Assembly: GCA_030737835.1 (NCBI GenBank)
Contig: CM060852.1
Coordinates: forward strand, 22,801,868 to 22,865,867
Length of the DNA stretch: 64,000 nucleotides
Origin: Acorus gramineus
Lineage: Eukaryota; Streptophyta; Magnoliopsida; Acorales; Acoraceae
Direction of reading: 5' to 3'
Shown here: in pieces, positions 15,705 through 64,000 of the stretch
Numbering within the stretch: position 1 is the first letter of the stretch
Layout: the number at the start of each line of letters is the position of its first letter
The notes under the pieces: model-generated
The model's input: the letters and a program-made list of their open reading frames with translations, nothing else
What the model was told of the DNA's origin: nothing
The model's database searches: none
Made by a program: the position numbers and the translations under genes

Positions 15705-18396
15705 ATGGCGATGGAAATCACACAGATTCTTTTGAATGCACAAGCTGTGGATGCAACTGTTCGGAAGCATGCAGAGCAGAACTTGAAGCAATTCCAAGAT
15801 CAAAATCTCCCTGGTTTTTTTCTCTCTTTATCAGGAGAGTTAGCAAATAATGATAAGCCGGTGGATATTCGTAAATTGGCAGGTTTGATCCTAAAAAACA
15901 CCCTGGATGCAAAGGAACAACACAGGAAGTTTGAGCTTGTGCAGGGATGGTTGTCATTGGATGTGGGTGTTAAGGCTCAGGTCAAGGGATGCTTGCTGCA
16001 GACCCCCTCTTCTCATGTTCTTGACGCTCGGTCGACTGCATCCCAGGTCATTGCCAAGATTGCGGGCATAGAGTTGCCTCATAAACAGTGGCCAGAACTC
16101 ATTGGGTGTCTCTTGTCTGATATACACCAACTTCCAGCTCATGTCAAGCAGGCGACTCTTGAAACTTTAGGGTATATATGTGAGGAAGTCTCTCCAGATG
16201 CCATTGATCAAGATCAAGTGAATAAGATACTTACCGCTGTTGTTCAGGGTATGAATTCTTCTGAGGCGAGCAATGATGTGAGACTTGCCGCAACTCGAGC
16301 ATTGGATATTGCATTGGGATTTGCTCAGGCAAACTTCTCGAATGACATGGAACGGGATTACATTATGAGGGTGGTTTGTGAGGCAACTCTATCCACGGAT
16401 GTTAAAATAAGGCAAGCAGCGTTTGAGTGTCTGGTTTCGATATCCTCAACCTACTATGAGAAGCTGTCATCCTATATTCAGGATATATTTAATATCACTT
16501 CAAAAGCTGTTAGGGAAGATGAGGAACTTGTTGTCCTCCAGGCTATTGAGTTCTGGAGTTCAATCTGCGATGTGGAGATTGATATTTTGGATGAATATGG
16601 AGGCGACTTCACTGGTGATTCGGACATCTCTTGTTTTTATTTTATCAAGCAGGCCCTACCTGCGTTGGTACCTATGCTGCTGGAGACTCTTTTAAAGCAA
16701 GAAGAGGATGAAGATCAGGATGAGGGGGCTTGGAATCTTGCGATGGCTGGTGGAACGTGCTTGGGTTTGGTTGCTCGGACGGTCGGTGATGACATAGTAC
16801 CCCTTGTAATGCCCTTCATAGAAGAAAATATCACAAAACCAGATTGGAGGCAAAGGGAAGCGGCAACATATGCATTTGGTTCCATTCTTGAGGGTCCATC
16901 CCCTGACAAGCTTACAAACATTGTCAATATTGCATTGAACTTTATGCTCACTGCTTTAATGAAGGACCCCAATAATCATGTCAAGGACACCACTGCATTG
17001 ACCCTTGGAAGGATATTTGAGTTCTTACACGGTTCGATTCTGGACTCCCAAATTATCACTCCTGAAAACTGCAAACAGATCCTTATGGTCCTCCTCCAGA
17101 GCATGAAAGATGTTCCCAATGTTGCAGAGAAGGCTTAAGGTGCTCTTTATTTCCTTGCCCAAGGTTATGAGGATGTGGGGTCATCATCATCACCTCTGTC
17201 TCCTTTCTTTCAAGATATCATCCAGGCTCTTCTCAGTGTGACGCATCGGGAAGATGCCGGGGAGTCACAGCTCCGGACTGCTGCCTACGAGACCCTAAAA
17301 TGAAGTTGTGAGGTGCTCAAATGATGAGACTGCCCCGACAGTTGCCCAACTTGTTCCAGTCCTCATGCTGGAACTTCACCAGACACTTGAGGCACAGAAA
17401 CTGTCATTAGAGGAGAGGGAGAAGCAGAGCGATCTGCAGGGGCTTCTGTGTGGATGCTTACAGATCGTTATCCAGAAGTTGAGTTCATCTGACGCCACAA
17501 AATTTATATTAATGCAATTCACGGACCAGGTGATGAATCTCTTCTTGAGGGTATTCGCTTGCAGGAATGCCACAGTCCATGAAGAGGCCATGCTTGCTAT
17601 AGGTGCTCTCGCATATGCGACAGGTCCAGGCTTTGCAAAATACATGCAAGAGTTCTACTCGTATTTGGAGATGGGTCTCCAGAACTATGAGGAATATCAA
17701 GTTTGTTCTATTACTGTTGGGGTGGTCGGGGATCTATGCAGGTCTTTGGATGATAAGATATTGCCCTTTTGTGATGGAATCATGACCCAACTACTTAAGG
17801 ACCTGTCAAGCAGTCAGTTGCACAGGTCCGTTAAGCCACCTATCTTCTCATGCTTTGGTGACATCGCTCTTGCAATTGGAGGGAACTTTGAGAAGTACTT
17901 GATATATGCTATGCCAATGTTGCAGAGCGCAGCAGAACTCTCTGTAAAATGCTCTGGTGTGGATGATGAGATGGTTGAGTACACCAACCTGCTAAGGAAT
18001 GGCATATTGGAAGCCTACTCTAGAATCTTTCAAGGTTTTAAGAACTCGCCCAAGACTCAGTTACTGATGCCTTATGCTCCTCTCATACTCCAGTTTCTCG
18101 ATAGCTTATACATGGAAAAAGACATGTACGCTCTAATAATCAGACCTGTCCTTTTATTTATTTTTCAAGTTGTTAATTTAGTACAACCATCTTATTATAA
18201 TATTAATTTCAGGGATGATGCAGTTTCTAAAGCTGCGATTGGAGTTCTTGGAGATCTGGCTGATACACTGGGAAGCAATGCCGGTCCACTGATCAACCAA
18301 TCTGTCTCAAGCAAAGATTTCTTGGACGAGTGCCTCTCATCGGATGACCATCTGATCAAGGAATCCGCTGAATGGGCGAAGATGGCCATCAGCTGA
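15705..18396 (+). pseudogene. Importin subunit beta-1, decaying duplicate
   Basis: It encodes the same HEAT-repeat nuclear import receptor as the gene at 26226-28936, starting MAMEITQILLNAQ. The frame stops at 17136-17138 (TAA where copy 2 has TGT, Cys). One base is added near 17298-17301, and the last exon (from 18213) ends five codons early because CGA became TGA at 18394. Its last donor is GTACGC, against GTAAGT in copy 2. I count about 25 amino-acid differences from copy 2 in the first 477 residues, many in conserved positions (for example TTAWTL to TTALTL), which fits relaxed selection. A truncated 477-residue protein with an importin-beta N-terminal half could still be made if transcribed. 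A misassembly is less likely, because the divergence is spread along the copy. Confidence 0.88.
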
Positions 18397-26225: not shown

Positions 26226-28936
26226 ATGGCGATGGAAATTACCCAGATTCTTTTGAATGCACAAGCTGTGGATGGAACTGTTCGGAAGCATGCAGAGCAG
26301 AATTTGAAGCAATTCCAAGATCAAAATCTCCCCGGTTTTTTGCTCTCTTTATCGGGAGAGTTAGCAAATAATGATAAGCCGGTGGATAGTCGTAAATTGG
26401 CTGGTTTGATCCTAAAGAACACCCTGGATGCAAAGGAACAACACAGGAAGTTTGAGCTTGTACAGGGATGGTTGTCGTTGGATGCCGCTGTTAAGGCTCA
26501 GATCAAGGGATGCTTGCTGCAGACCCTCTCTTCTCATGTTCTTGATGCTCGGTCTACTGCATCCCAGGTCATTGCCAAGATTGCGGGCATAGAGTTGCCT
26601 CATAAACAGTGGCCAGAACTCATTGGGTCTCTCTTGTCTAATATACACCAACTTCCAGCTCATGTCAAGCAGGCGACTCTTGAAACTTTAGGGTATATAT
26701 GTGAGGAAGTTTCTCCAGATGCTATTGATCAAGATCAAGTGAATAAGATACTTACCGCAGTTGTTCAGGGTATGAATTCTTCTGAGGCGAGCAATGATGT
26801 GAGACTTGCCGCAACTCGAGCACTGGATAATGCATTGGGATTTGCTCAGGCAAACTTCTCGAATGACATGGAACGGGATTACATTATGAGGGTAGTTTGT
26901 GAGGCAACTCTATCCACGGATGTTAAAATAAGGCAAGCGGCGTTTGAGTGTCTGGTTTCAATATCCTCAACCTACTATGAGAAGCTGTCATCTTACATCC
27001 AGGATATATTTAATATCACTTCAAAAGCTGTTAGGGAAGATGAGGAACCTGTTGCTCTCCAGGCTATTGAGTTCTGGAGTTCAATCTGTGATGAGGAGAT
27101 TGATATTTTGGATGAATATGGAGGTGAATTCACTGCTGATTCGGACATCCCTTGTTTCTATTTCATCAAGCAAGCCCTACCTGCTTTGGTACCCTTGTTG
27201 TTGGAGACTCTTTTAAAGCAGGAAGATGACCAAGATCAGGATGAGGGGGCCTGGAATCTTGCGATGGCTGGTGGAACATGCTTGGGTTTGGTTGCTCGGA
27301 CGGTTGGGGATGACATTGTCCCTCTTGTAATGCCTTTCATAGAAGAGAATATCACAAAACCGGATTGGAGGCAAAGGGAAGCAGCAACATATGCATTTGG
27401 TTCCATTCTTGAAGGTCCATCCCCGGACAAGCTCACAAGTATCGTCAATATTGCTTTGAACTTTATGCTTACTGCTTTGATGAAGGACCCTAATAATCAT
27501 GTCAAGGACACCACTGCATGGACCCTTGGAAGGATATTTGAATTTTTACATGGCTCGATTCTGGGCTCGCCCATTATCACCCCTGAAAACTGCCAGCAGA
27601 TCCTTACGGTCCTCCTCCAGAGCATGAAAGATGTTCCTAATGTTGCAGAGAAGGCTTGTGGTGCTCTTTATTTCCTTGCCCAAGGTTATGAGGATGCGGG
27701 GTCATCTTCATCGCCTTTATCTCCTTTCTTTCAGGATATCATCCAGGCTCTTCTCACTGTGACGCATCGGGAGGATGCTGGGGAGTCACGGCTGCGGACT
27801 GCTGCTTACGAGACCTTAAACGAAGTTGTGAGGTGCTCAAATGATGAGACTGCCCCAACAGTCGCACAGCTTGTTCCAGTGCTCATGCAGGAACTTCATC
27901 AGACACTCGAGGCTCAGAAATTGTCATCGGAGGAGAGGGAGAAGCAGAGTGATCTGCAGGGGCTTCTGTGTGGATGCTTGCAGGTCATCATCCAGAAGTT
28001 GAGTTCTTCTGAAGCTACAAAATTTATCTTAATGCAATTTGCAGACCAGGCAATGAGTCTCTTCTTGAGGGTATTCGCTTGCAGGAATGCCACGGTGCAT
28101 GAAGAGGCCATGCTTGCTATAGGTGCCCTCGCATATGCAACAGGACCAGGCTTTGAAAAATACATGCAAGAGTTTTACCCGTATCTGGAGATGGGTCTCC
28201 AGAACTACGAGGAATATCAAGTTTGTTCTATTACTGTTGGGGTGGTCGGGGATCTATGCAGGGCTTTGGATGATAAGATATTACCCTTTTGCGATGGGAT
28301 CATGACCCAGCTTCTTAAGGACCTGTCAAGCAGTCAGTTGCACAGGTCTGTGAAGCCACCTATCTTCTCATGCTTTGGTGACATCGCTCTGGCAATTGGG
28401 GGAAACTTTGAGAAGTACTTGATGTATGCTATGCCCATGCTCCAGAGTGCAGCAGAGCTTTCTGTACATGCTTCAGGAGTGGATGAAGAGATGGTTGAGT
28501 ACACCAACCAGCTAAGGAACGGGATATTGGAAGCCTACTCTGGAATTTTTCAAGGTTTTAAGAACTCTCCCAAGACCCAATTATTGATGCCTTACGCTCC
28601 TCACATTCTCCAATTTCTCGATAGCTTATACATGGAAAAGGACATGTAAGTTTTAATAAACTGCTCTGTTGCCACCTGTCCTTTTATTTATTTTCAACTT
28701 GTCAATTTATTACAACCATATTATAATATTATTTTAGGGATGATGCTGTTTCTAAAACTGCGATTGGAGTCCTCGGAGATCTGGCTGATACACTGGGAAG
28801 CAATGCTGGTCCACTGATCAACCAATCTGTCTCAAGCAAAGATTTCTTGGACGAGTGCCTCTCATCAGATGACCATTTGATCAAGGAATCTGCTCAATGG
28901 GCAAAGATGGCCATCAGCCGAGCCGTCTCCGTCTGA
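26226..28936 (+). CDS. Importin subunit beta-1 (karyopherin beta-1), intact copy
   Basis: Nuclear import receptor. It binds importin-alpha/cargo through its HEAT superhelix, docks at FG nucleoporins and releases cargo on RanGTP. Exon 1 is 26226-28645 and exon 2 is 28738-28936, joined across GTAAGT...TTTTAG within Met of KDMDDAV. The product is 872 residues, close to the about 870 I remember for Arabidopsis importin beta-1. The N-terminal Ran-binding region starts MAMEITQILLNAQ. The acidic loop after HEAT 8 is visible as QEDDQDQDEGAW (about residues 338-349), and HEAT repeats run on to the C-terminal AISRAVSV. A non-coding first exon and 5'-UTR intron precede it. The start codon is the first ATG after that intron. 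It is probably the functional member of the duplicated pair. Confidence 0.96.
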
Positions 28937-34860: not shown

Positions 34861-36799
34861 TACCCGTTCGAATCCCCAACAGATCTCTCATTGTCCGGCC
34901 CTCGTCTCACGACCCTTTTCGCCCGGCCCACTTTGGGGTTTAGTAGGGGAGGAGTAGAGGGTGGTGGAGATGGAGATGATGGTGCTAAAGCAGGTGTGCG
35001 AGTGTGGATGAGAAGGTGGATTTGGTGCAGGACGGGGCGTGATTGGTGATGGTGGTGGAGGGGAGACATAGGGTTGGAGGAGGCGCCGAAGCCAAACAAC
35101 CTCAGCAGTAGCAGATGCCATAGCAGGATATTCAGCCTCAGCACTCGAACGAGAAACAATGTCTTGTTTCTTGGCCTTCCAAGATATAAGAGAGTCCCCA
35201 AGAAAGACACATATACCAGTTGTGGATTTTTGATCTGTGACATCTCCTGCTCAATCTGCATCAGTATAATCGCGAAGTTCAAGAGTAGAAGAAGACGGTA
35301 ACAGCAGAGCACGAGATATAGTGCCACGTAGATAGCGTATAATCCGAAGAACTACTGCATAATGAATAGTACAAGGGGTAGCAACAAACTGACTGACAAT
35401 ATGCACAGCAGAGGCAATGTCAGGATGAGTGACAGTGAGATAGACGAGGCTTCTAACAAGCTGTCTATAACGAGTAACATTAGAAAGTGGTTCTCCATCG
35501 TCAGGTCGGAGCTTAGCATGAAGCTCAATAGGAGTGGGAGAAATGCGATCATCAGTCAGACATGCACGGTCGATCAAGTCAGCAGTATACTTGCGTTGGG
35601 AGAGAAGATAACCACGCGGAGCAGAAGCAACTTTCAAGCCTAGAAAATAGCGAAGTTTGCCAAGATCTTTCATCTCAAATTGACACTGAAGATGTTGCTT
35701 GACCGATTGTATATGAGACGAATCATCGCCGGTGATGATCATGTCATCAACATAAAGCAGCAAGATAGTACGATGAGGACCAGAGTTGTGAACAAATAAA
35801 GCTGGATCAGAGGAACTCGGAACAAACCCAGCAACACAGATAGCATCAGTGAATCGAGCGAACCAAGCACGAGGAGCCTGCTTGAGACCATAGAGAGCGC
35901 GATGAAGATGACATACATGACCAGATGGATGAGGAAGACCCGGAGGAGGAGTCATGTAAACCTCCTCTGATAAATCACCATGAAGAAAAGCGTTCTTGAC
36001 ATCAAGCTGATAAATGGGCCATTGACAAACAAAAGCAACAGAAATCAAAGTACGAACAATCGTCATCTTTGATACAGGAGCAAATGTCTCATCATAATCA
36101 ATACCATGCATGCTGCTGAGTGAAACCACGGGCAACCAACCGAGCCTTGTGACGCTCAATCGAACCATCAGAGTTGGTCTTGATCTTATAAACCCACTTA
36201 CAGCTGATAGGAGTCTTCCCTGGAGGAAGTGGTACAATTTTTCACGTATGAGTGCGTTGTAATGCACTAAGCTCCTCTGCCATAGCACCTTCCCATTCTG
36301 GAATGCCGACAGCCTCACGATATGATTGGGGCTTCCCATCATATGACTTCTCAGGCATCTTTTATTAGTCATCCTACTCGCATGTTTCCCACTCCTGTTA
36401 TTCGTACGGCAGATGGGACTCTTCTGTCTGTGTCGAGTTCTGATTCTCTTGTTGATCATTCTCATTGATTTTAACTTCCTGATGTTTTTTATGTTCCTGG
36501 TCTATTACTAAATTTGCTTTATGTTGGTCAAATTGCGGATCATGATTGTCTCATTACTTTTGATTCTTCTATTTGTTCTGTACAGGATCGTCATACGGGG
36601 AAGCAGATTGGAACATGCTCTAGACGCGATGGGCTCTACTACATGGATCATCTTCATATTCCTTCGTCTTCTGCAGCTTCTGCTCGCTTGATTTCTTCTT
36701 CTCCTCCCTCCTTTGATGTATGGCACCGTCGTCTTGGCCATCTCTCTCCTCCAAGACTTCGTTATCTAATAAGTACCGGTGTTTTAGGTTCCTTTTCAA

Positions 36800-39480: not shown

Positions 39481-41900
39481 AAGTTTCTGCCTTAATGTAT
39501 TGGTATTGTATGATTTTTTTGTTTATTGGCCATGCATATTAGTGTGAACAATTATTAGAACATGTTGAAAAGATGGAACCTAAAAATTGCTTAAATTTTT
39601 TATTTGAGTGTCATATCCGTAATTAACAAAAATGGTTATAAAAGATCTCTCATCACCCTATAGAGCACATGGCACATTTACATTGTGTCATTTGGAACTG
39701 ATTATCAAACTGATTCTTCTTCTAAAAAATTTATTTTCAGTTGCACAGGGGTGTTTTTAAATTTTAGCTTTTGATTTTTTATTTTGATTAAAAATCAATT
39801 AAAATAACTTATATGAAAAAGCTGATTGAAAATAACTTCTTGAGAAGAAGCTGGTTGAGAGCAGATTTTATAAGAAAAATGTTTCTCAAAATTGATTGCA
39901 AATGGAGCCTTAATCCAAACCAAATTTTCTATCTCAATAAAAAGATCCCAAATTTTCACTTGCCATTTCTTCTTATGTAATGTAAAATAAATAATTAAAT
40001 TTCCCACCCAAACCAGTTCCCAAGTGTGAATACCCAGTACATATGTTTTAAGGCTTCTTCAGACTTTTTATAATATAATAATAATAATAAAATGGTACCT
40101 GGCACAACAAAGTTGTTTTTGATATACCAAAAAAAAATCTGCTCATGTCATTAATTAATCTCATCTACTTTTGCACAGCATATTACATTCATCAAATTAA
40201 TAAGTATTAATTTCCCTAGCTGAAAATCCAAATCTTCAAGTCACATTGAATATTTGAATGGAAGCTATTTTAAGATGTGACATCGATAGAGACCAAAAAA
40301 AGAGAATGTCCAACCAAATATGGTCTCAGAAAAGTTAAGGTGGAGATCTGCTGTTGCAAACAAAAAGCAGGAAGGAATTCTGTGTTGTGGTCAACCTCTA
40401 TGAACACATCCTGCTCTCATTTCAACTACTATAGTGGGGTTGTGATAAGTGAAGTGCCTTTCATCCATATTTTTGGGTGTTCTAAAAAGTGTTGCATTGG
40501 AAACCAAATTCAGTAAGAATTGAAAAGAAGGGGGAAAAATAAGCCTTACCAGTGGAGGAAGGTCATGAAAAGATTTTGAAAATTATTTTTTTTACCATGA
40601 AGTGGTGACCACCCAACCCAGCAAGCAATTCATCAGCGCACCAAGATACGCCTTTATCGTTGTCTTTTCATTGCCTGCATTTGCCACCACTGCTTCAGTT
40701 GATACCATCAAGACTTCAGGATTTTATGGATCTTTTAGGCTTTGGTTGGCTTGGCTCTGTTTCAATTCCAATCCTTGAAAAGTTGATGACATGAGCTTTC
40801 CTCCTATGGATAATTAAGTTCGATGGATTATTATAAGTATTCTTTTTTGTTTTTATTGTCTTAGTTAAATCTTCTTCTATGAATGAGACTTCAATCTTGA
40901 ATCTCTCATTGAAGAAGGGATATCTCTACCAACCTAGCAAGAGGTGGTTCGGTACAATACTGGTTTTCGTTAAGAGGCCTATAAGTTATTGCAGTTTTTG
41001 CTTCCACCAATGATTCATCTCTAATTTGCTTTCACATTGAGGAAGTCCTTCTTATTAGCCTACCTTCTTTTGATAATCCCTTCTATTTTTCGCAATAGGG
41101 ATTAAGTCAGGTGTCATAGTGTGGTTTGTTCATCTTAAAAGCTATCAGTATGTGTCTTATTGATGTATAGTCTAAACTACAACATACACTGAAACTTGAA
41201 AGGGTTAGGCCATGACATATAATCCCATATATTTAAGTGGGTAATTGCTATGTTTAAGTTAGTGGGTTGGTGTTCATGACATAATCCATGTGCATGAGAT
41301 ATGCATGAGTGGATACACATGCAAAATTCATGCATGCCATTGACTCTAGTTGTACAAACCTAAAGGACTGAAAATGGTTCTTCATTAGACATGTGTGGCA
41401 CCAAAGATCATTGGAGTTGTACCTGCCACATATATAAAGGTCCACCTTTTGGTAGTTCATAATTTGAGTTGAACTTAACAAAGTAAGTGCTCTTACAATG
41501 ACAGCCTTTTTCTACAGTCTCCACATGCTTTTATTTTTTGAAGGTGTATACTTAATGTAATGAAGCATGTACCTTTTAGAAAATGAAGTATCCACTCTAA
41601 TGAATTGTACATACTCTATTATGAAAAAAAAACAACCACATGCTTCATCTAACGAAGCATATATCTCGTTAGACAAAATAGACTTGCAGGACTATGTAAA
41701 ACTACGTGAAACAACACCTCAAAAATAAAATGTTAGGTTGAGTTTTTGATGGAAGTCTAGATTTAGTGCAGTTGACTTATTGTTTGTGTGTGTATGAATG
41801 GATTTCATCATTTTCATAAAGAAAGAAAATCTAGTGTGGTGGATCCCATGAAAAACAAAAACCTGTAGAAATCTTTTCGTTGCCTCTATTCTCAATGACT
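39481..41900. other. Intergenic DNA upstream of the PSY gene
   Basis: About 2.4 kb of AT-rich DNA with no coding sequence that I can recognise. Near 41560-41690 short words such as GAAGCATGTACC and TTCATCTAACGAAGCAT repeat in both senses. It probably includes the distal promoter of the PSY gene. Confidence 0.5.
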
Positions 41901-41909
41901 TCCTACCAA

Positions 41910-41916
41910 TATAAAA
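41910..41916 (+). promoter_or_regulatory. TATA box of the PSY peptide gene
   Basis: TATAAAA, 80 bp before the start codon at 41990, with a C-rich stretch (41929-41942) where transcription would begin. Confidence 0.5.
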
Positions 41917-41989
41917 TGGGCTTCCATCCCCCCTCCCCAACCTAAAAAAAACACATCCCAAACAACAAAGATTTTTTCCTCCTCCTTTC

Positions 41990-42293
41990 ATGGTAGCCAT
42001 GAAAAGGTTCCTTCCCTATCTCCTCCTCCTCCTCCTCCTCTTACATTCATCTGAAGCTGTGGATGACAAACTTGAACCTTCCTACCCCATTCACAAGGTA
42101 TCGTTAACTCGGAAAAGCTTTCCTAAATAATGTTGTTTTCACAACATTATATTTCTTCGGTTTCTAACTATTTGTATATTATCATCAGCAGATGGATGAA
42201 AGGAAGCTTATAGTGACCATTGACTATGATTATGGAGGAGCTAACCCAAGGCACGATCCCCATAAAGGAAGGCCCGGCGGTGGGAAGCCCTAA
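41990..42293 (+). CDS. PSY-type tyrosine-sulfated peptide precursor
   Basis: Exons 41990-42097 and 42192-42293 (or from 42189) encode a 69- or 70-residue secreted precursor. Exon 1 gives MVAMKRFLPY, eight leucines and HSSEA, a clear signal peptide, with GTATCG as donor. Exon 2 ends VTIDYDYGGANPRHDPHKG, then RPGGGKP and a stop. The core DY-x-x-ANP-x-HDP matches the PSY family (PSY1 mature peptide DYGDPSANPKHDPGVPPS). These hormones are sulfated on the Tyr after Asp by TPST in the Golgi, secreted, and promote cell expansion through LRR receptor kinases. Two Asp-Tyr pairs occur here, so which Tyr is modified is open. The acceptor is a CAGCAG tandem. Precursor size and two-exon layout fit the family. 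A TATA box lies 80 bp upstream, and AATAAA at 42355 may serve polyadenylation. Confidence 0.85.
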
Positions 42294-42564
42294 TCAAACT
42301 CTTGAGGAGGGTCTCCTATGGCTAATATATATCATATATGGATACTACACATGGAATAAATTCTACTCACCGGATGTGGGGGCTATAATGTTTTCTTTAT
42401 CACTCACCCCCCCCCCCCCCTCATACCAGGCAAGGAAAATGTTTGACACTATAGTTATCATTTTTTATGAGCTGGTGTTGTTTTGGGAACCATGTTTCAT
42501 GTTTGGTTCTCTAGAGGCAGTAGTTTAACCAATGGAGATGAAATAGTATATTTAGTACCATATA

Positions 42565-42600
<36 letters not shown>

Positions 42601-42990
42601 TATTTAATGTTCCTATGTGTTCTTCTAGTAGACAAAGTACTTGTTCACCCTTTTAACTTGCAATCCTAAGGTGAAATTGATATACAAGCTCACAGCAGAA
42701 ATGCGAGATGAAGAATATAATAATCTTTGAATTAAATAATAGCATTGCATTGGATTGTGCAGATGAGATGGATATAGTAGTCTCAAATTATAACCAGATG
42801 CAACTATAATGATTCTTGTCAGTAGGAAACAATAAGGAATGGACAGGAATCTTGTTCATTGTCAGGGGGAAATTCAGAATTGCTTTAATCATATCATAAA
42901 CATTAAAAACATGATCATGTGGATTTTACATGTATACAAAAGCAGGGAAAAATTTGTCTACTTATATACACAGCAAGGACAGCTTCTAAT
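42294..42990. other. Spacer between PSY and TAP38 (convergent 3' ends)
   Basis: It holds a long poly-C tract near 42406-42420, a (TA)n/(GTAT)n microsatellite at 42562-42602 and the probable 3' UTRs of both genes. No further gene is seen. Confidence 0.6.
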
Positions 42991-45900
42991 TCATAAGGAA
43001 AGTATAGATGATATGTAGATTCCCAGCGACACAATACCAATTATACCCAAAGCTTGGCTTACTTCGTAAAAGAAATTTGGTCCCTGAACCGGCAAATTCT
43101 GCCAATCTGTCCTCCTGTCCACATGACAAAGCCACCAAGGATTAAAAGATTTGTCACAGGAACAGTATCCAAGGATATCTAAAGCATTCAAGCTGGATAA
43201 GCTGAAAACATAAGCATAGCAGAAACAAAAAAATTAGATGCCAGTTTTGAAACATAAAATTCAATCATCACCATAAGAAGGTATATGCGAGTTTCCTTCC
43301 CCCCTAAATAATATCCATGACCAAAGAACTTAAATGAGAAACATCAGGAAGTACATGTGGTGCAATGGTTGTGTCCATGATTCATTATAATTGGACATCA
43401 ATTACTCATGTGGCTATATATCTATATAATTTTCCTGGTAATCAGATCAATTATTTATTGCAAAATTTGCACAATTCCCATTTCATGTATGCTGACCCAA
43501 TGCTACAGAACAATGCAACTCCATTTCGCTTTCATTAACACTAGTATTGTGGCAGTGGCTGAAATGTGATTAAGCCGTCACAAGCCCTAACATCACATCC
43601 AGAGTGCTATTTCTTAAGCAATTCAATAAGAGATTATTTTATATACCAGTTCTAATGCTTAAGAAAAAAGTACATACCCTAAGTCAGCTATCACAACACT
43701 AACATTGTCTTGAGAGCTTCGGTCCTTCAAAGTGAACAAAGTGAGATTATTTAAATTGATCATATGATAATTCTGGTGAGACCAATGACAAGATTTAGAA
43801 AGCCATCAAAGTGAAAGATTACCAGAGCTTCACGAGTAAGGGCTTCACAAGCCAGCTGAAGTCAAAATGGGAAGTCAGGATAAATTGTAATATGTGCGGT
43901 GAAATTGAAAGGATGATATGGCAGGAATATGTACCTGAACATCACCATGTTTACGGAGTTCATTCCTGACAAAATTTACTGCTTCAGAACTGAAACATGA
44001 AATGCAATTTATTGTGGCGGTTAACAATCATTATTTAGTAGATTATAAAGAAAAGTAAAACAAAATGGAAAGGTTAGTCAAGTAACATCAAGTAAATTTG
44101 TCTCAACCATTCATGAACCTTTTTATGTAATCCCACAAGCCATCTGATGCCAGTAATATAAATTCGACATCAGATCCAAGATCCACTTGATAAATATCGG
44201 GAGAAGCACTTAATAAATCCCCTTTAAATTTTATTCTGCCACAACATCACATGAATGTAGAGAATCAGTAAACATGTGATCTATCAGCTCAAAATATACA
44301 TACATAATGTCATAAATAATCATTCAGTACTTCAATCTGTGTAGTGAGTAGCAGCCTTGAACATGATTTTGTTGTTCAAACTGATAAATTATATCTTCAT
44401 TGATAGAGAACAAACATTTTGAAAACTACATGTACTTGACTGAAATAGAAATCTTATGCAAAAACAATATATGACAACCTAATAAGGATGTGTTACCGTG
44501 AAATGAATTTCTTCGTCCATCTTCCCTCCTCAACTCCTTGCTCTAACATCCTGAACAGAAATAAAAGCAGTTGATGCCATCGAGTTTCTTGTCCTCTAAA
44601 ACAGCATGTTTATCTAAAAAATCACAACACATATCCATTGAGAAGTGGAGACAAGTGGGAAAAGTACAAGGCACGGACTCATTCTTCTTCGTTTTGAATC
44701 GCACATCTCCAAATGCACGGGATACAGATATTTCTCCACAAATTCGCCCATCAACAATCTGGGAGTCCAATTTTAGCATCATCATCCACAAGATGGAGAT
44801 ATTAAAGTCAAACAGGCCTCAGATCTACTGCACTGATATCATTGCTCACAAAAGCAGTCAAAACCTGGCTACGATTTTCAAAGACAGAAAATCCCTTTAT
44901 TCAGCATACTATATATCCTTACAGCTTATAGAATGCCCCCAATAGCTGGGGTAGATTTAGCATATAAAGAGACCATGCCAAATCTAACAAAGTGAACTTG
45001 CATCAATGAAGGTGCTTAAAATTGCAAAAGGGCTATGCATCAGTTCACATTGCAGGATCATAATACTTGACTTAAATAAGAAACATAATACTAAGAGCAA
45101 CAGCTTTACATCGCTTCGGAGCATGAGTAAATAAAAATTTATGTTCTCACCCTGATTGAAGCAATACCAGAAAAACATATTGTTGCTTAGGATTCTTTAG
45201 ATTACAAATTATTTTCAAACTGTTTGCAGCTGTTTAGACAGAACATTGACCATCTTGAGAGTTGAGGGTTAAGCATAGGGGTCAAAAGGTGGTCCATAAG
45301 ACTAATAATTGGAGAAAATTAGACACCATGCAGGGAAGAAAAAAACCTTGTCAGCAGTCTAACCAGTATTTTACATCCATCATCATAAGTTCAGAAGAAC
45401 TTTTTAGATAAATATGGTATTAAAAAGATCATATGCAAATTGGTTATCTTCACTTCAGTCATTTAACAAGTCTACTGCAACTGCAATGTTAGTTTCATAC
45501 AAAAAGAAACAAATCATCTGTCAGTGTAAGGGGCTGAAATCAGCCAAATATTGCTCTCTATAGAATGAGACTAGAAAACACACCCATCCACCTGCTTCCC
45601 TGATCCGCTTGATTTCTCCGAGAGAAACCATGTTATTCCCATAAGGCCGATGCGGCCCCGTCAAAACCTCTGCTCTGCCCGAACGCGATATGACCTGTAT
45701 TCATCAGCCAATCTACTTCACACAACAACATAGAGGGCATCAATGCAAGACAAACAAAAGCAATTCCATCCACACATACCACGGAGGAGTCACCAATATG
45801 TGAAATGATCAGCACACCATCACCAACAAAGATTGCCGTCGCAGTTGATCCAGAATCATCTTCCTTTCCCTTCTGCTCAAGCCTTCATCAAAACATCAAA

Positions 45901-48082
45901 CACACATATTGACATTAAAATATTATTAAAAACAATTGTAAAACAACAATTTTTTTTTCCATATATACCCCTCTTATAATCCAATTTTTTCAAATTAATC
46001 CATTTAAAACCCTCCTTGCAGAAATATACATTAAATTCTCTAAGGCCTTCTTTGGTCCATTTCATTATTTTATATGGATTTTTTTACCATGAATAATTCC
46101 ACTATATTGTTTGGCCTGCCAACAAATTCTTACACATATTCATCTTCCAGTGTTTTGTAATTTCATTCCCGCAGGGAAAATGATGAGAAATTTGGTTCAA
46201 ATATCAAAACGAATCATACAATCAGTCTTGTACATAACATGTCTAAAAAAAGTGAGTGGTACAAACATAATAAAATATTTAATAATAAAATAAGTGAATT
46301 AAGAAAACAACAATATATAATTAAACACAAAATGATAATAATATCCTTATAAGTTGTACGTATCACATTATTTAAATATCAAAGTCAATAGCATAATGAT
46401 AGTATGTAAAATAGAACATTTGAATAGAACAATGTACTTAATCAAATTACTACTACACCCAAATTAACCAAATTATTTACAAATTTAAATTCGTTTAGTA
46501 ATAATCCATAACAGAGGCAAGTATACCCCCATCCACATGGAACCTAATGAGAGGGAGAAAGAAGAAAAGGGATGTTTTGTTTAATTAGGATATGTACAAT
46601 AACCATCAAGAATGGAATCCACAAGGATTCTAAAAATCCCAACCAAATTAGATGGATTTTGATTCCACCCCGTTTTCCCATTTGTTTGGATTTTGAATTT
46701 AGTGGGACCAGGTTTCCTTACAAGAATATCACCAACCAAACATGCAGATTAGATTTGTTCAGTTCCTTGATAATCTTAGGATGGCATCGAATTCACCCTA
46801 GGCCTAAGTGAGTGCATCAGTTCCCCTCCGTTATAGACATTGGGTAACCATGGGTGAAGAATTACAGATATACCCTTAAAGATGTGAAATGTCTAAGATA
46901 CCCTCAACTCATTCCCTTGACATATCTTCTCATTTTGTATGCATGGGTGCTGATCACATCCTATGCAGAGCTCTCTTCTATGAAGGGAATGACATATGGG
47001 TGGGTGGTGTTCTGATGTTTTGTAATTTCCCTTTTAGTCTTCCTCCCCGATTAATATAATTGAGAGCGAAAGCGTCCAAAAAAAAAAAAAAAAAATCTCA
47101 TTTTCTTCTCTCTTGATTCAAATCGCCTTCTTTCACATTTTATCCCCTCTTTGAAAATCTTCATGAGAGGTGCTTGGGGTGGTCGAAGAGGATTGGTAAA
47201 AATTATGGATTGGCCAGCCATTAAAGGGATTTGATAGGATGCAGGAATGAGAAATGCAGAGAAAGTTGGGAGTTTGAGAAAGGCGTGCGAGCGCGTTGGA
47301 TGCAATAAGTGTGACATATTGCATCCAAAAAAAAAAAAAAAAACCACTCACTGGATCCATCCTATTACTAACAGTGAAACACAATATATTTACATAATCC
47401 ATAAATCCCAATCCATGAGAGTAGACGTTAACACAGGTACACCGATGCACTCACTCAAAGAATTTGAGGAGTATTTCTGCAAAATGTTTTAATCCAACAG
47501 GGGTATATATGTAAATATCCCAAACCGAAGTACTTCAATGGCAATGCTTCAACACAAGAAAATTAGGGTTTACCAAGTGATCAATTTCGCATCAACGCTA
47601 ACGAAAGCCTCCTGAATCGCGTCCTTGATGGCCTTGAAATTCTTGCTGGTCAACACCAGTCCGCCTTCCAAAACCTTCTCACACTCGTCATACAACGCAT
47701 CCCTGCAGAGACAGTTCCATCAGAGGTGAAAGGAAGATCGATCGGACGGTCGAGATCGAGAGTACCTGAGGAATTCGACGGTGGAGAACCCGGAGTGACC
47801 GTCGAAGACGGCCGCGAAGGAGAATCCGGCGAGGCCTCCGCCGTCCGTCCGGAGGACGATCTCGTCCTCCATCTCCGACCGCGGTCCCTGGACCTTGCTG
47901 TGCCCCCACCGGACCACCGACGCCATCGACGACGACGGCGCGTCGATCGCGATCGCCGATTCGCATCGGACGGTCTGGACTCGGTGTTCCTTCCTCTTCT
48001 GATAGCCGTTGATTCGGTGGTCCTTTGGATTGCTATGCGATGCGAGTCTCTGTAGCTGCTGCGGTCTCAGCAGCAGCGCCAT
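42991..48082 (-). CDS. TAP38: Thylakoid protein phosphatase 2C, TAP38/PPH1 type (PP2C57)
   Basis: PP2C that dephosphorylates LHCII and reverses state transitions. Exons: 48082-47766, 47702-47574, 45882-45780, 45694-45584, 44758-44679, 44550-44497, 44235-44119, 43989-43935, 43855-43823, 43724-43678, 43114-42991. They sum to 1170 nt, 389 residues plus stop, close to Arabidopsis PPH1 (388). Visible are a transit-peptide-like N-terminus ending before [10 protein letters not shown], the phosphatase motifs EMEDE, FDGHSG, GSTAT, HIGDS and [23 protein letters not shown], and the C-terminal membrane helix [16 protein letters not shown] that anchors it in the stroma thylakoid. FDGH and the metal-binding aspartates are present. 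The exon 5 donor is weak (GA then GTCCGT). Divergent from the KLCR gene. Confidence 0.95.
45883..47573 (-). other. Intron 2 of TAP38 with retroposon-like tails
   Basis: A 1.7-kb intron, much longer than the others. On the plus strand, 46960-47096 has the look of a LINE/SINE 3' end: pyrimidine-rich DNA, then GAGCGAAAGCGTCC and 18 A. A second A-run of about 16 ends at 47342. The middle (46020-46810) is AT-rich with no clear element ends. Confidence 0.4.
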
Positions 48083-59046: not shown

Positions 59047-60450
59047 ATGGTCGGAGGCGCAACTAGGGGGTGGACGGTGGTTAATCGGAAGAGGCGCGGA
59101 TCGATGGGAGTTTCTGCTAGTCCTTCGTCGCGGCGGAGTGACGAACGCTGTTTCAGGTGCCTGTGTTTTGGTCACCACGCTTGGGAATGCAGGGACCCTC
59201 CGAGATGTTGGCGATGCGGTAAATCCGGCCATCGCAGCCCAGCCTGTTTTGGTGCCTATTCAAGTGTGGGGGTAGGGGGGTTTCTCCGAAGAAAGGAAGG
59301 TTTGGAAAGGGGGGTCATGGAGAGGTTGGTGCTTCCGTTGCCGCCGATGGGGTGTCGGGTTGGGGACGTATCGGTGGCGGGACCATCTGGTCCTAGAGTT
59401 CCAGTGGTGAGACCGCCTGTCTCTAGAGTTCCGGCAGTGTCGATCCCCTGGTCCCCTGACCTGGAGGTCCGAGCGGAAAGATTCAGTCGAAGTGCCATCC
59501 TTGAATGGAGAGGTACCGGCGATGCAGATTGGGGTATCATTTTTCAGGCGGTCTCGGTAAGGTGGAGGGATCTCCCTGTGCAGGAATGGTGGGCTCTCAG
59601 TCCGTTCAGGGCTTTGGTTAGATGCGCTTCTATTTCGGCTAGAGATGTTTTAATCCACGAAAAGGTGCTGGCCGTCCCTCGGGGGGACGTAGTCTTTATC
59701 CCCTGCGGATGCGAGATTGGGGGAGGAGAAGAGGCCCTGGGTCGAAGGACCTCAATCAAGATTTTGGGCCTTCCCCTCCTCTGGAGGACGGCGGATGTCA
59801 TCAGAAGCATTGTGGGAGCCTTTGGTCATCTCTTGGTGGCCAAGGAAGTTCCTAGTGGTTCGGAGGCCTTTCCGATGTTAGAGGCTGACGTTTGGGTGGC
59901 TCCTTCAGTGGAAATTCCATTTGAGATCCCGGTTTGTCTGGATGGTTGGTTGGTTATTGTGAGGATAGTTAAATCGTCTTCTCAGCCTCCTAGTTCGTTT
60001 GTGGAGGCGGTCCGCGGGGGTCCCAAGTCGGAAGCCAAGGGTGCAGAGGGTGATCTTCCAAGGGTTCCATCGTCGGGGAGCTATGTCCTGGAAACGGATT
60101 GCTTCCCGGACTTGGAGTCCAAGAGGCCGGGGAAGGACCCCTTCCGAGTTGTAGGTGACTCGGGTCACTTGAGGAAGGTCGATCGTAGTGAAGCTTCCAA
60201 GGCAGGTGTTCCAGTCGGGTCAGATGTCGTACCTGAGTCTGTCCAAAGGTCTATCCCCGTTGCGGTTTCTTCATCATCACGTCTTCCAGGTGGCAGGGAC
60301 GGAGTGGTAGAAAGGGGTGGTGGCGTGGTCTGTCCGCCTGTGAGAGAGTCTCCAAGTGACCAGATGGGGGTTGGTGGGACGTCGGAGGGCTCAGTGGGTC
60401 TGTACGGTGATGAGGAGAGGACGAAGGTTTTGAATTTGGAGATGGAATGA
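59047..60450 (+). CDS. LINE ORF1 (zinc-knuckle nucleic-acid-binding protein)
   Basis: An intact 467-residue frame, 17 bp after the second 5S-like unit. Residues 35-48 (CFRCLCFGHHAWEC) and 54-67 (CWRCGKSGHRSPAC) are two CX2CX4HX4C zinc knuckles, the RNA-binding signature of plant L1-type ORF1. A globular region at about residues 155-310 (for example ISARDVLIHEKVLAVPRGD) may correspond to the DUF4283-like part. The tail is Ser/Gly/Val-rich and disordered. ORF1p would coat the LINE RNA during target-primed reverse transcription. It starts at the first ATG. The expected ORF2 start with its endonuclease does not follow. Confidence 0.8.
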   Translation: MVGGATRGWTVVNRKRRGSMGVSASPSSRRSDERCFRCLCFGHHAWECRDPPRCWRCGKSGHRSPACFGAYSSVGVGGFLRRKEGLERGVMERLVLPLPPMGCRVGDVSVAGPSGPRVPVVRPPVSRVPAVSIPWSPDLEVRAERFSRSAILEWRGTGDADWGIIFQAVSVRWRDLPVQEWWALSPFRALVRCASISARDVLIHEKVLAVPRGDVVFIPCGCEIGGGEEALGRRTSIKILGLPLLWRTADVIRSIVGAFGHLLVAKEVPSGSEAFPMLEADVWVAPSVEIPFEIPVCLDGWLVIVRIVKSSSQPPSSFVEAVRGGPKSEAKGAEGDLPRVPSSGSYVLETDCFPDLESKRPGKDPFRVVGDSGHLRKVDRSEASKAGVPVGSDVVPESVQRSIPVAVSSSSRLPGGRDGVVERGGGVVCPPVRESPSDQMGVGGTSEGSVGLYGDEERTKVLNLEME

Positions 60451-61065: not shown

Positions 61066-61686
61066 ATGGCAGAGTTTCCTTGTGTCACCAACATGCAAGA
61101 CATGGAAGTCCCCGTGCAAGAAGATGAGGGGAAGAAGCGAGTCTATGGGCCGAAGGTCGGAAAAGGTCTAACCATCGATCGGACCTTCCCATGGGCTGGT
61201 ACAGAGCGTGCCATCATACGCAGCCTCGAGAGCCTTCTCTCAGCGAACATCAATACCATCACTGGCACTGTCCAATGCAAAATTTGCAAGGGGAGGCTGA
61301 AGGTCCAGTATGACATCCTCGAGAAGTTTGAGAAACTGAAAGCTTTCATTGTAGCTGAAAAGCCTAATATGCAAGATAAAAAAGCTCCTTATGCATGGAA
61401 GCATCCAAAGCGCGGTTCATGTCTCATGTGTCTTAGGCATAACACCATGGAACCACTGATCTGGCCAAAGAAGCAGGGGATCAACTGGCTGTTCTTGCTT
61501 CTTGGCCAGACAATTGGGTTTTGTAATGAAGACCAGTTGAGGTATCTCTGTAAACACAACCGGGTGGATCGCTCAGGGAATTTGGATGAGCTCATCTATA
61601 AGACATACTTCTGCCTATGGATCCCCATGAATGAGCATGGGGGCATGCTTTCATTTATACAGATCAACCCAACTAACCAGACGTAA
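61066..61686 (+). CDS. DUF7086-domain protein
   Basis: A 206-residue frame, first ATG in good context (GCCATGG). It has the plant DUF7086 pattern: CKICKGRLKVQYDI (first Cys pair, about residue 74), WKHPKRGSCLMC, then INWLFLLLGQTIGFC with LRYLCKHN and LIYKTYFCLW. The N-terminus carries GLTIDRTFPWAGTERA, also usual in the family. The function is unknown. The stop codon overlaps a GTAAGC donor (61683). Splicing to TTTCAG (ends 61798) would give an ending TERV and a stop at 61811. It sits between the two LINE pieces and beside plastid-derived scraps, so it may be a transduced or stranded copy, but its frame is intact. Confidence 0.7.
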   Translation: MAEFPCVTNMQDMEVPVQEDEGKKRVYGPKVGKGLTIDRTFPWAGTERAIIRSLESLLSANINTITGTVQCKICKGRLKVQYDILEKFEKLKAFIVAEKPNMQDKKAPYAWKHPKRGSCLMCLRHNTMEPLIWPKKQGINWLFLLLGQTIGFCNEDQLRYLCKHNRVDRSGNLDELIYKTYFCLWIPMNEHGGMLSFIQINPTNQT

Positions 61687-62149: not shown

Positions 62150-64000
62150 GAGTTGGAATGGCGTCAGCGGTTGCGGGCAATCTGGCTTAAAGAGGGGGAT
62201 AGCAATACAAAGTTCTTTCACAAAGTGGCGAATCAGAGAAGGCGATTCAACAGAATTTCCATGCTTCAGGTTGACGGTGTGGTTTGTGACTCTCCTCAAG
62301 CAATTCAGGATGCGTTGGTGAGTCATTTCTCTGTAGCCTTTCAGCGTAAGCGCGGATGGCGTCCTCTCTGGTTTGATGAGAATTTGGGCCGAATCCCGGA
62401 TGACTGCTTGTCGAAATTAGAGGCTCCTTTTGATGAGGAAGAGATAAAAAATGCTATCTTCGGGGCTGAGCCGGACAAAGCTCCTGGTCCAGATGGCTTC
62501 GGGTTGCGTTTCTATCAAGAATTTTGGAATGTTGTCAAGGGAGATGTGTTCGACATGTTTTCTGAATTCTTTCATTCTTCAAAGGGGATTGGGGGTATGA
62601 ATTCTACATTCTTAGTTCTCATTCCAAAGAAAGAAAATGCAGTGGAGATCAACGACTTTAGGCCAATCAGCTTGGTTAACGGGTGCTATAAGATGATTTC
62701 GAGAGTTCTTGCTAATAGGTTGAAAGCGGTGGTGGGTCTCCTTGTGGAAGAGTCGCAATCGGCGTTTATCCCTGGGCGTCTCCTTCAGGACGGTTTTATG
62801 ACGACCCAGGAATGTATCTCAGCGGTCTATAGAGAGAAGAGACAGGGGCTCCTTCTGAAGTTAGACTTTGCGAAAGCTTATGATAATGTGAATTGGGATT
62901 TTCTTTTCCACCTCCTAGCGTGCCACGGGTTTGAGCCGAATTGGATACGTATGATCCAGGCTTGTGTTTCGACTGCGAAGGCGTCTGTTCTGGTGAATGG
63001 CACTCCGTGTGGTTTCTTTCATATTAACAGAGGCTTGCGTCAAGGTGATCCCCTTTCTCCATTACTCTTCGTAATAGTTGCTAACGCCTTTAGCAGAATG
63101 ATGTCGATGGCAGAGGAGGCAGGGTGGATCTCGGGTCTTAGATGCCGGATGGGAGGTCGATCGATTTCACACGTTCAGTATGCCGATGATACAGTTGTTC
63201 TCTGCGAGGCGGAGGAGGGTTCTGTTCGGGGGATCCAGTTGGTATGCCAATGCTTCTGTTTGCTTTCAGGTCTTCAGATTAATTTTTCCAAGAGCTCTTT
63301 GTCTGGGATCAATGTCGAGAAGGAGATGTTGGAGCACTTTTCTGAGATTCTTGGGTGCGGATTGCAGCAGTTCCCGATCAGACACCTTGGGCTTCCCCTC
63401 CATTTGGGTCGTTTACCGAAAGCGGAATGGATGCCTTTGATTAGCCGCTTTGAGAAAAGACTAGAGGGGTGGAAGAGTCGTTTTCTTAGTTTGGGCGGCC
63501 GCCTTACTCTGCTTCAGGCGGTTCTATCGAATCTCCCAATATACTTCATGTCCATATTTCGTATTCCTAAGGGGATCCTGAATAGAATGGAAAGTATTAG
63601 GAGGCGTTTTCTATGGAATGGAGCGAAGGAAGGTCGGAACAGAGTTCATATGGTTCAATGGGATACTGTATGTAGCAGCAAAAAAGATGGTGGGGCTGGG
63701 ATCTTGAACCTCGATGACATGAATGTGGCTCTCTTGTGTAAATGGCTTTGGAGGTGGCTATTTTCCCCAAATCTGACTTGGTGTTAGGCCATCAAAGAGA
63801 AATATCTCTTCGGTCCTCGACCTAGTAGGTTCCCTCGCCCTTCTAGTTCCATTGCTAAATTATGGAAGGACAATTCTGTATTACAAGTAAACTTCGAGAA
63901 GGGGATTCGATAGGAGGTTGGCACAGGTGACATGGTTAGGTTTTAGCAAGATGTGTGGGTTGGTGACGTGGCTCTTCTTCTTCGTTTCCCGAGCATATTC
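62150..64000 (+). mobile_element. LINE ORF2 reverse transcriptase, 5'-truncated and decaying
   Basis: The frame opens without an ATG in the linker between endonuclease and reverse transcriptase (WLKEGDSNTKFFH). It runs through all RT blocks: DKAPGPDGF, NDFRPISLVNG, SQSAFIPGR, KLDFAKAYD, GLRQGDPLSPLLF, the catalytic YADD (about 63179-63190), LQINFSKS, LGLPLHLG and SLGGRLTL. The frame stops at TAG 63785-63787. Homology goes on in the same frame (AIKEKYLFGPRPSRF) past two more TAG codons (63911, 63944) and runs off the window. The endonuclease is absent. It is an L1-type plant LINE in the same sense as ORF1 at 59047. Confidence 0.9.

Follow-up and report, generated by a model that had tools for sequence, protein, structure and literature searches.

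Does the short segment at positions 41990-42293 of the 64-kb window (the whole stretch of DNA analyzed here) hold an intact gene for a sulfated peptide hormone and, if so, to which family does it belong, and which of its two Asp-Tyr pairs would set the start of the peptide? The reading that best explains the sequence, to which we give a probability of about 0.93, is an intact two-exon nuclear plant PSY gene whose product would enter a PSY-type pathway; judged by gene content, the plant is probably a flowering plant. What can be observed within this genome is how the gene is built, its motif, and that exon 2 is constrained.

Gene structure and encoded precursor

Splicing 41990-42097 to 42192-42293 (plus strand, as are all features of the gene given here) yields an in-frame precursor of 69 residues carrying DYDYGGANPRHDP, reproducing the two-exon gene proposed in the preliminary description in both position and length. 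The coding part of exon 1 (41990-42097; MVAMKRFLPYLLLLLLLLHSSEAVDDKLEPSYPIHK) comprises 36 codons in phase 0 and encodes the predicted signal peptide and the start of the propeptide, with a second in-frame ATG at 41999. The coding part of exon 2 (42192-42293; MDERKLIVTIDYDYGGANPRHDPHKGRPGGGKP) comprises 33 codons followed by TAA (42291-42293) and encodes a short linker and the peptide. Between them lies a 94-nt, phase-0 intron (42098-42191) with GT..AG borders, clean as first described, and the frame runs through the junction. The acceptor is a tandem CAGCAG (42186-42191), such that an alternative exon 2 start at 42189, in phase 0 like that at 42192, would add one Gln to the propeptide. A TATA box (TATAAA, 41910-41915) is found 80 nt 5' of the first ATG, and an AATAAA polyadenylation-like signal is located at 42355-42360.

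Judged by hydropathy, which peaks at 2.85 over 11 residues near the precursor N-terminus, the leader is signal-peptide-like, in agreement with the signal peptide proposed earlier. By the -3,-1 rule, cleavage could occur at SEA/VDD. The core, D47-P59 (42222-42260), is situated near the C-terminus and opens with the first Asp-Tyr (D47 Y48; 42222-42227), followed directly by a second Asp-Tyr (42228-42233) that falls within the variable positions of the PSY motif. Downstream of the core is a basic Gly/Pro C-terminal tail, HKGRPGGGKP (42261-42290), possibly included in the mature peptide. At 69 aa, the precursor is slightly below the range of 71-175 aa given for wheat (PMC11641228).

The published 13-residue PSY motif, DYXXXX[AP]NXXHXP (PMC7913133), has a single match in the six frames of the window, at the core described above, and none in 300 simulated first-order Markov windows of 64 kb. 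The simulated bases are too few to resolve a genome-wide expectation, and hence the motif by itself is not our main argument, which comes instead from a duplicate of the gene.

A duplicate on contig C3 and further PSY-type exons

When exon 2 was used as a protein query against the genome itself (398.6 Mb, 137 contigs), two matches were obtained, the query locus and C3:28999477-28999563 (75% identical, E 2e-7). The C3 duplicate displays the same anatomy, with both ATGs kept (ATG..ATG), a hydrophobic leader, the same donor codon, a phase-0 intron of 100 nt at the same position, the sequence MNLRRLGVNTQDYDSGGPNPRHDPHKGRPGIGGAKP, a TATA box, and an AATAAA; the AATAAA of the window gene lies within a 3' stretch conserved between the two. 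Nucleotide identity is 86/105 (82%) in exon 1, 83/102 (81%) in exon 2, and 59/94 (63%) in the intron, while the codon alignment gives 0.819 and 0.788 for exons 1 and 2, respectively. For the flanks, counting aligned positions only, the 290 upstream bases are identical at 193/282 and the 207 downstream bases at 133/177. The codon alignment contains three gaps, all of whole codons (3, 3, and 6 nt), and the nucleotide alignment places a further gap of four columns at the stop codon, for which a position directly 3' of the stop would do just as well.

Collinear blocks shared with C3 extend from 40246 to 42580 of the window. Those at 40246-41291 are 67-90% identical to the region upstream of the C3 duplicate and have no obvious coding frame; they could possibly represent conserved regulatory sequence or an unrecognized upstream element. 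The surrounding genes, when used as synteny queries, gave no match on C3: the N-terminal 302 aa of importin-beta found its best match outside the window on C5 (63%), a TPR gene matched on C1 (69%), and a 54-aa piece of a PP2C-like first exon matched only itself. The duplication is therefore shown only for the PSY gene together with the collinear blocks.

The window holds several other features. Two tandem importin subunit beta-1 genes (15705-18396 and 26226-28649) are 95% identical over their first 302 aa; the second copy has an 807-aa open frame with importin-beta domains, and the first is broken into two open frames (477 and 362 aa). A gene convergent with the PSY gene occupies ~42990-48082 on the minus strand, its 3' end having been placed by eye. 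For its first exon, a match to Protein phosphatase 2C 57 (PDB 4yzg) covers residues 57-105 of 105 (E 1e-11), and a Pfam search with this 105-aa piece gave no match at E<=0.001. This phosphatase is also known as TAP38/PPH1. Two retroelements are represented by reverse-transcriptase fragments at 35251-36465 (minus strand) and 62153-63787 (plus strand), which match Pfam RVT_2 and RVT_1, respectively. The RVT_1 frame and a 467-aa frame that matches no Pfam family (59047-60450) flank a 206-aa open frame with DUF7086 (61066-61686; E 1e-43).

Including the window gene and its C3 duplicate, the genome contains at least six PSY-type exons, the searches scoring only the best candidates. The other four all fit the motif: with protein queries, C8:7155623 was found at E 2.6e-4, C2:23517196 at E 1.1e-4, and C1:328527 at E 0.0013, and C8:7149972, located ~5.5 kb from the first of these, was found at E 0.8 and then at 4.9e-10 with its neighbor as the query. 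The two C8 exons (C8:7149972-7155760), whose cores read DYEDPSANPKHDP and DYQDPTANPGHDP and whose tails are long, basic, and rich in Gly, are probable tandem duplicates. Upstream of these four distant exons, candidate hydrophobic ATG frames were seen for three (C2, C1, and one C8 exon, C8a) and none for the other C8 exon (C8b), with no convincing signal-peptide exon among them. A further candidate at C6:14528031 was dropped as weak (E 4.4) and interrupted by two stops, and a query based on TaPSY5 revealed no additional locus in the genome. Among the PSY exons of this genome, homology beyond the motif, covering the whole gene and the upstream blocks, is seen with the C3 duplicate only.

Peptide register and the doubled Asp-Tyr

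The preliminary description rendered the core as DY-x-x-ANP-x-HDP. This string is literally present, but it is read from the second Asp-Tyr; because in the published motif four residues separate DY from [AP]N, the family register is set by the first, with Tyr48 as its tyrosine. All six accepted PSY exons in the genome have a DY in this canonical register, and a second DY is found in one of the six, the window's own. The same spacing of DY four residues before [AP]N is found in all 10 published peptides that we aligned, a set that leaves out TaPSY7 and in which GmXAP5 lacks the final P of the motif and GmPSY-XSP4 its H and P. In addition, the C3 duplicate reads DYDSGG at this place, keeping the first DY only, and the first Tyr is thus the retained one.

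Alternatively, the native peptide could start at Asp49 (DYGGANPRHDP...), the second Asp-Tyr, which would shorten the spacing from DY to AN by two residues. Tyr50 likewise has an Asp at -1, and a sulfated synthetic TaPSY7 peptide, DYGGANSRHDPRRRPGRNG, whose start corresponds to the second DY, belonged to a set of four peptides for which promotion of tpst-1 root growth at 500 nM was reported (PMC11641228). This reported activity keeps the short register alive as a rival. Nevertheless, given the spacing common to the genomic exons and the aligned peptides, and the loss of the second DY in the C3 duplicate, we consider a start at Asp49 unlikely; the wheat authors themselves call natural processing unknown (PMC11641228). 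That spacing can matter is suggested by a truncated nematode peptide whose spacing exceeds that of plants by two residues and for which a weaker action has been described. As the wheat synthesis used the short register for a probably equivalent gene, TaPSY7 in the canonical register may still await assay.

The doubled Asp-Tyr (DYDYGG) pointed out earlier is real, but its unusualness is weakened by comparison with wheat. All TaPSYs are said to share DYXXXX[AP]N (PMC11641228), which, together with the short synthetic TaPSY7 peptide, is compatible only with DYDYGGAN; from these statements of the paper, the TaPSY7 precursor probably reads DYDYGGAN and shares the doubled DY with the window gene. 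When literature text was searched for DYDYGG and five related strings, DYDYGG occurred only in a peanut marker paper, which we regard as unrelated, and among the matches listed, no titles or abstract openings named a doubly sulfated PSY peptide. Arabidopsis PSY1 is termed disulfated in the Discussion of the wheat paper (PMC11641228) and carries one sulfated tyrosine according to PMC7913133.

With Asp at both -1 and -3, Tyr50 could possibly be a second TPST site, since Asp-Tyr is given as the minimum for sulfation (PMC10629525) and acidic neighbors are reported to play a role (PMC7913133, PMC13074997). A more speculative proposal, which we regard as rather doubtful, is that the tandem Asp-Tyr allows two outputs, either a doubly sulfated peptide or peptides in two registers starting at Asp47 or Asp49, that would tune receptor choice or affinity, with the C3 duplicate as the single-site version. 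The DYDY/DYDS paralog pair would offer a natural test of two questions, whether one sulfotyrosine or two are needed by PSY receptors and from which Asp-Tyr the register is counted.

Constraint on exon 2

If the locus were instead a pseudogene, a copy of the C3 gene in decay, its frame would have been kept by chance. The stop-free frame alone is uninformative on this point, as 31% of neutral simulations were also stop-free, and exon 1 adds little: its dN of 0.182 and dS of 0.296 by NG86, and 0.215 and 0.195 by YN00, indicate that constraint on this exon is weak or absent. Over the whole CDS, NG86 gives dN 0.175 and dS 0.432, and YN00 a weaker difference (dN 0.196, dS 0.335). Exon 2 is more sharply separated, with dN 0.168 and dS 0.614, a value from NG86 only.

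We compared the amino-acid changes between the two copies with a neutral simulation, a simple model using the observed transitions and transversions. Across the 68 aligned codons, 21 changes were seen against a neutral mean of 26.4 (P=0.023), with 8 against 13.7 in exon 2 (P=0.0014) and 3 against 6.7 in the part that runs from DY to the C-terminus (P=0.006), these tests being nested and their P values uncorrected. Exon 2 has thus been constrained, although a comparison of two sequences does not tell which copy bore the constraint. Together with the whole-codon gaps in the codon alignment and an intact frame, splice sites, TATA box, AATAAA, and stop, this deficit of changes makes a decaying pseudogene very unlikely. 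The case also illustrates how tiny two-exon hormone genes can be supported via a duplicate in the same genome.

Family assignment

The exact-register motif, the signal-peptide-like N-terminus, the duplicate with its constrained exon 2, and the further family members in the genome agree with the PSY identity given in the preliminary description, and the assignment of the locus as a PSY sulfated-peptide precursor gene, an ordinary member of a known family, is well supported at the sequence level. A Pfam scan of the 69-residue product returned no family at E<=10, and a PDB sequence search returned no matching chain at E<=1. Pfam PF03567, which covers plant TPST, had no match in this genome, and likewise none in any of 14 control genomes, a result that carries no information either way. 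PSK and RGF were set apart from the window peptide on general background. We reject membership in another DY sulfated-peptide family (CIF, RGF, or PSK) as extremely improbable: an Asp-Tyr sulfation site is common to these families, but the window peptide carries the complete PSY motif and, compared by eye with the soybean CIF homolog GmXAP3 (DYGRYDPSPSLSKPPFKLIPN, which has no NxxHxP and a different C-terminus; PMC9369194), ends in GRPGGGKP and lacks the PPFKLIPN-type C-terminal ending.

A proposed PSY-type pathway for the product

For the preferred PSY reading, processing, sulfation, receptor, and effect would be those of the family, and the steps are taken from the pathway described for PSYs (PMC7913133, PMC10519359). 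The signal peptide encoded by exon 1 would take the precursor into the secretory route and then be removed, and TPST in the Golgi would sulfate Tyr48, the tyrosine of the family register, and possibly Tyr50 too. Proteases, for which subtilases have been suggested, would cut just before Asp47 to release a peptide of ~18-23 residues, composed of DYDYGGANPRHDP and part or all of HKGRPGGGKP. Once secreted, the peptide would bind PSYR-type LRR receptor kinases, which in its absence hold growth back and heighten stress responses, and growth would thereby be favored over stress responses.

Comparison with known peptides

One close relative is the C3 duplicate, which is likewise built of two exons and agrees with the window precursor at 47 of 68 aligned residues; its core is DYDSGGPNPRHDP, and its tail also starts with HKGRPG. 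It differs in the replacement of the second Tyr by Ser, in PNP where the window peptide has ANP, in a precursor of 71 rather than 69 aa, and in an acceptor (CAACAG) without the tandem repeat. Arabidopsis PSY1, DYGDPSANPKHDPGVPPS, released from a precursor of 75 aa, has the same 13-residue core register, but it has a single DY, a different tail, and two modified prolines, at positions 16 and 17, without a proline at the equivalent places of the window peptide.

Soybean provides a peptide identified by MS, GmXAP5 (DYDEAGPNPRHTKKPGKG, sulfated at Tyr2), that resembles the window peptide in its register, the Asp at position 3, NPRH, and a basic Gly-rich tail, and differs in its single DY and in HTK where the window peptide has HDP (PMC9369194). 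The basic Gly-rich tail, initially singled out as unusual, is in fact an ordinary PSY feature: MS-identified soybean PSY peptides resemble the window peptide in starting with DY, in having N8, and in carrying basic Pro/Gly tails, with ends such as KSPGGA, KTPGGP, KSPGKP, and KKPGKG (PMC9369194), and two other PSY exons in this genome end in KSPGRP and RNPGRP.

In wheat, TaPSY7 is identical to the window peptide at 10 of 11 residues counted from the second DY of the latter, and its precursor is 71 aa long, compared with 69; its tail, in contrast, reads RRRPGRNG in place of HKGRPGGGKP, and it has three introns by the statement of the paper, as opposed to two exons in the window gene (PMC11641228). 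A two-exon structure is reported for TaPSY2, TaPSY6, and TaPSY10-5A, the remaining TaPSYs having three introns (PMC11641228), and among tobacco PSY genes, eight of nine are reported with three introns and one with two. Set beside these peptides, the doubled tyrosine site of the window gene is a small variation on a known PSY theme rather than something new.
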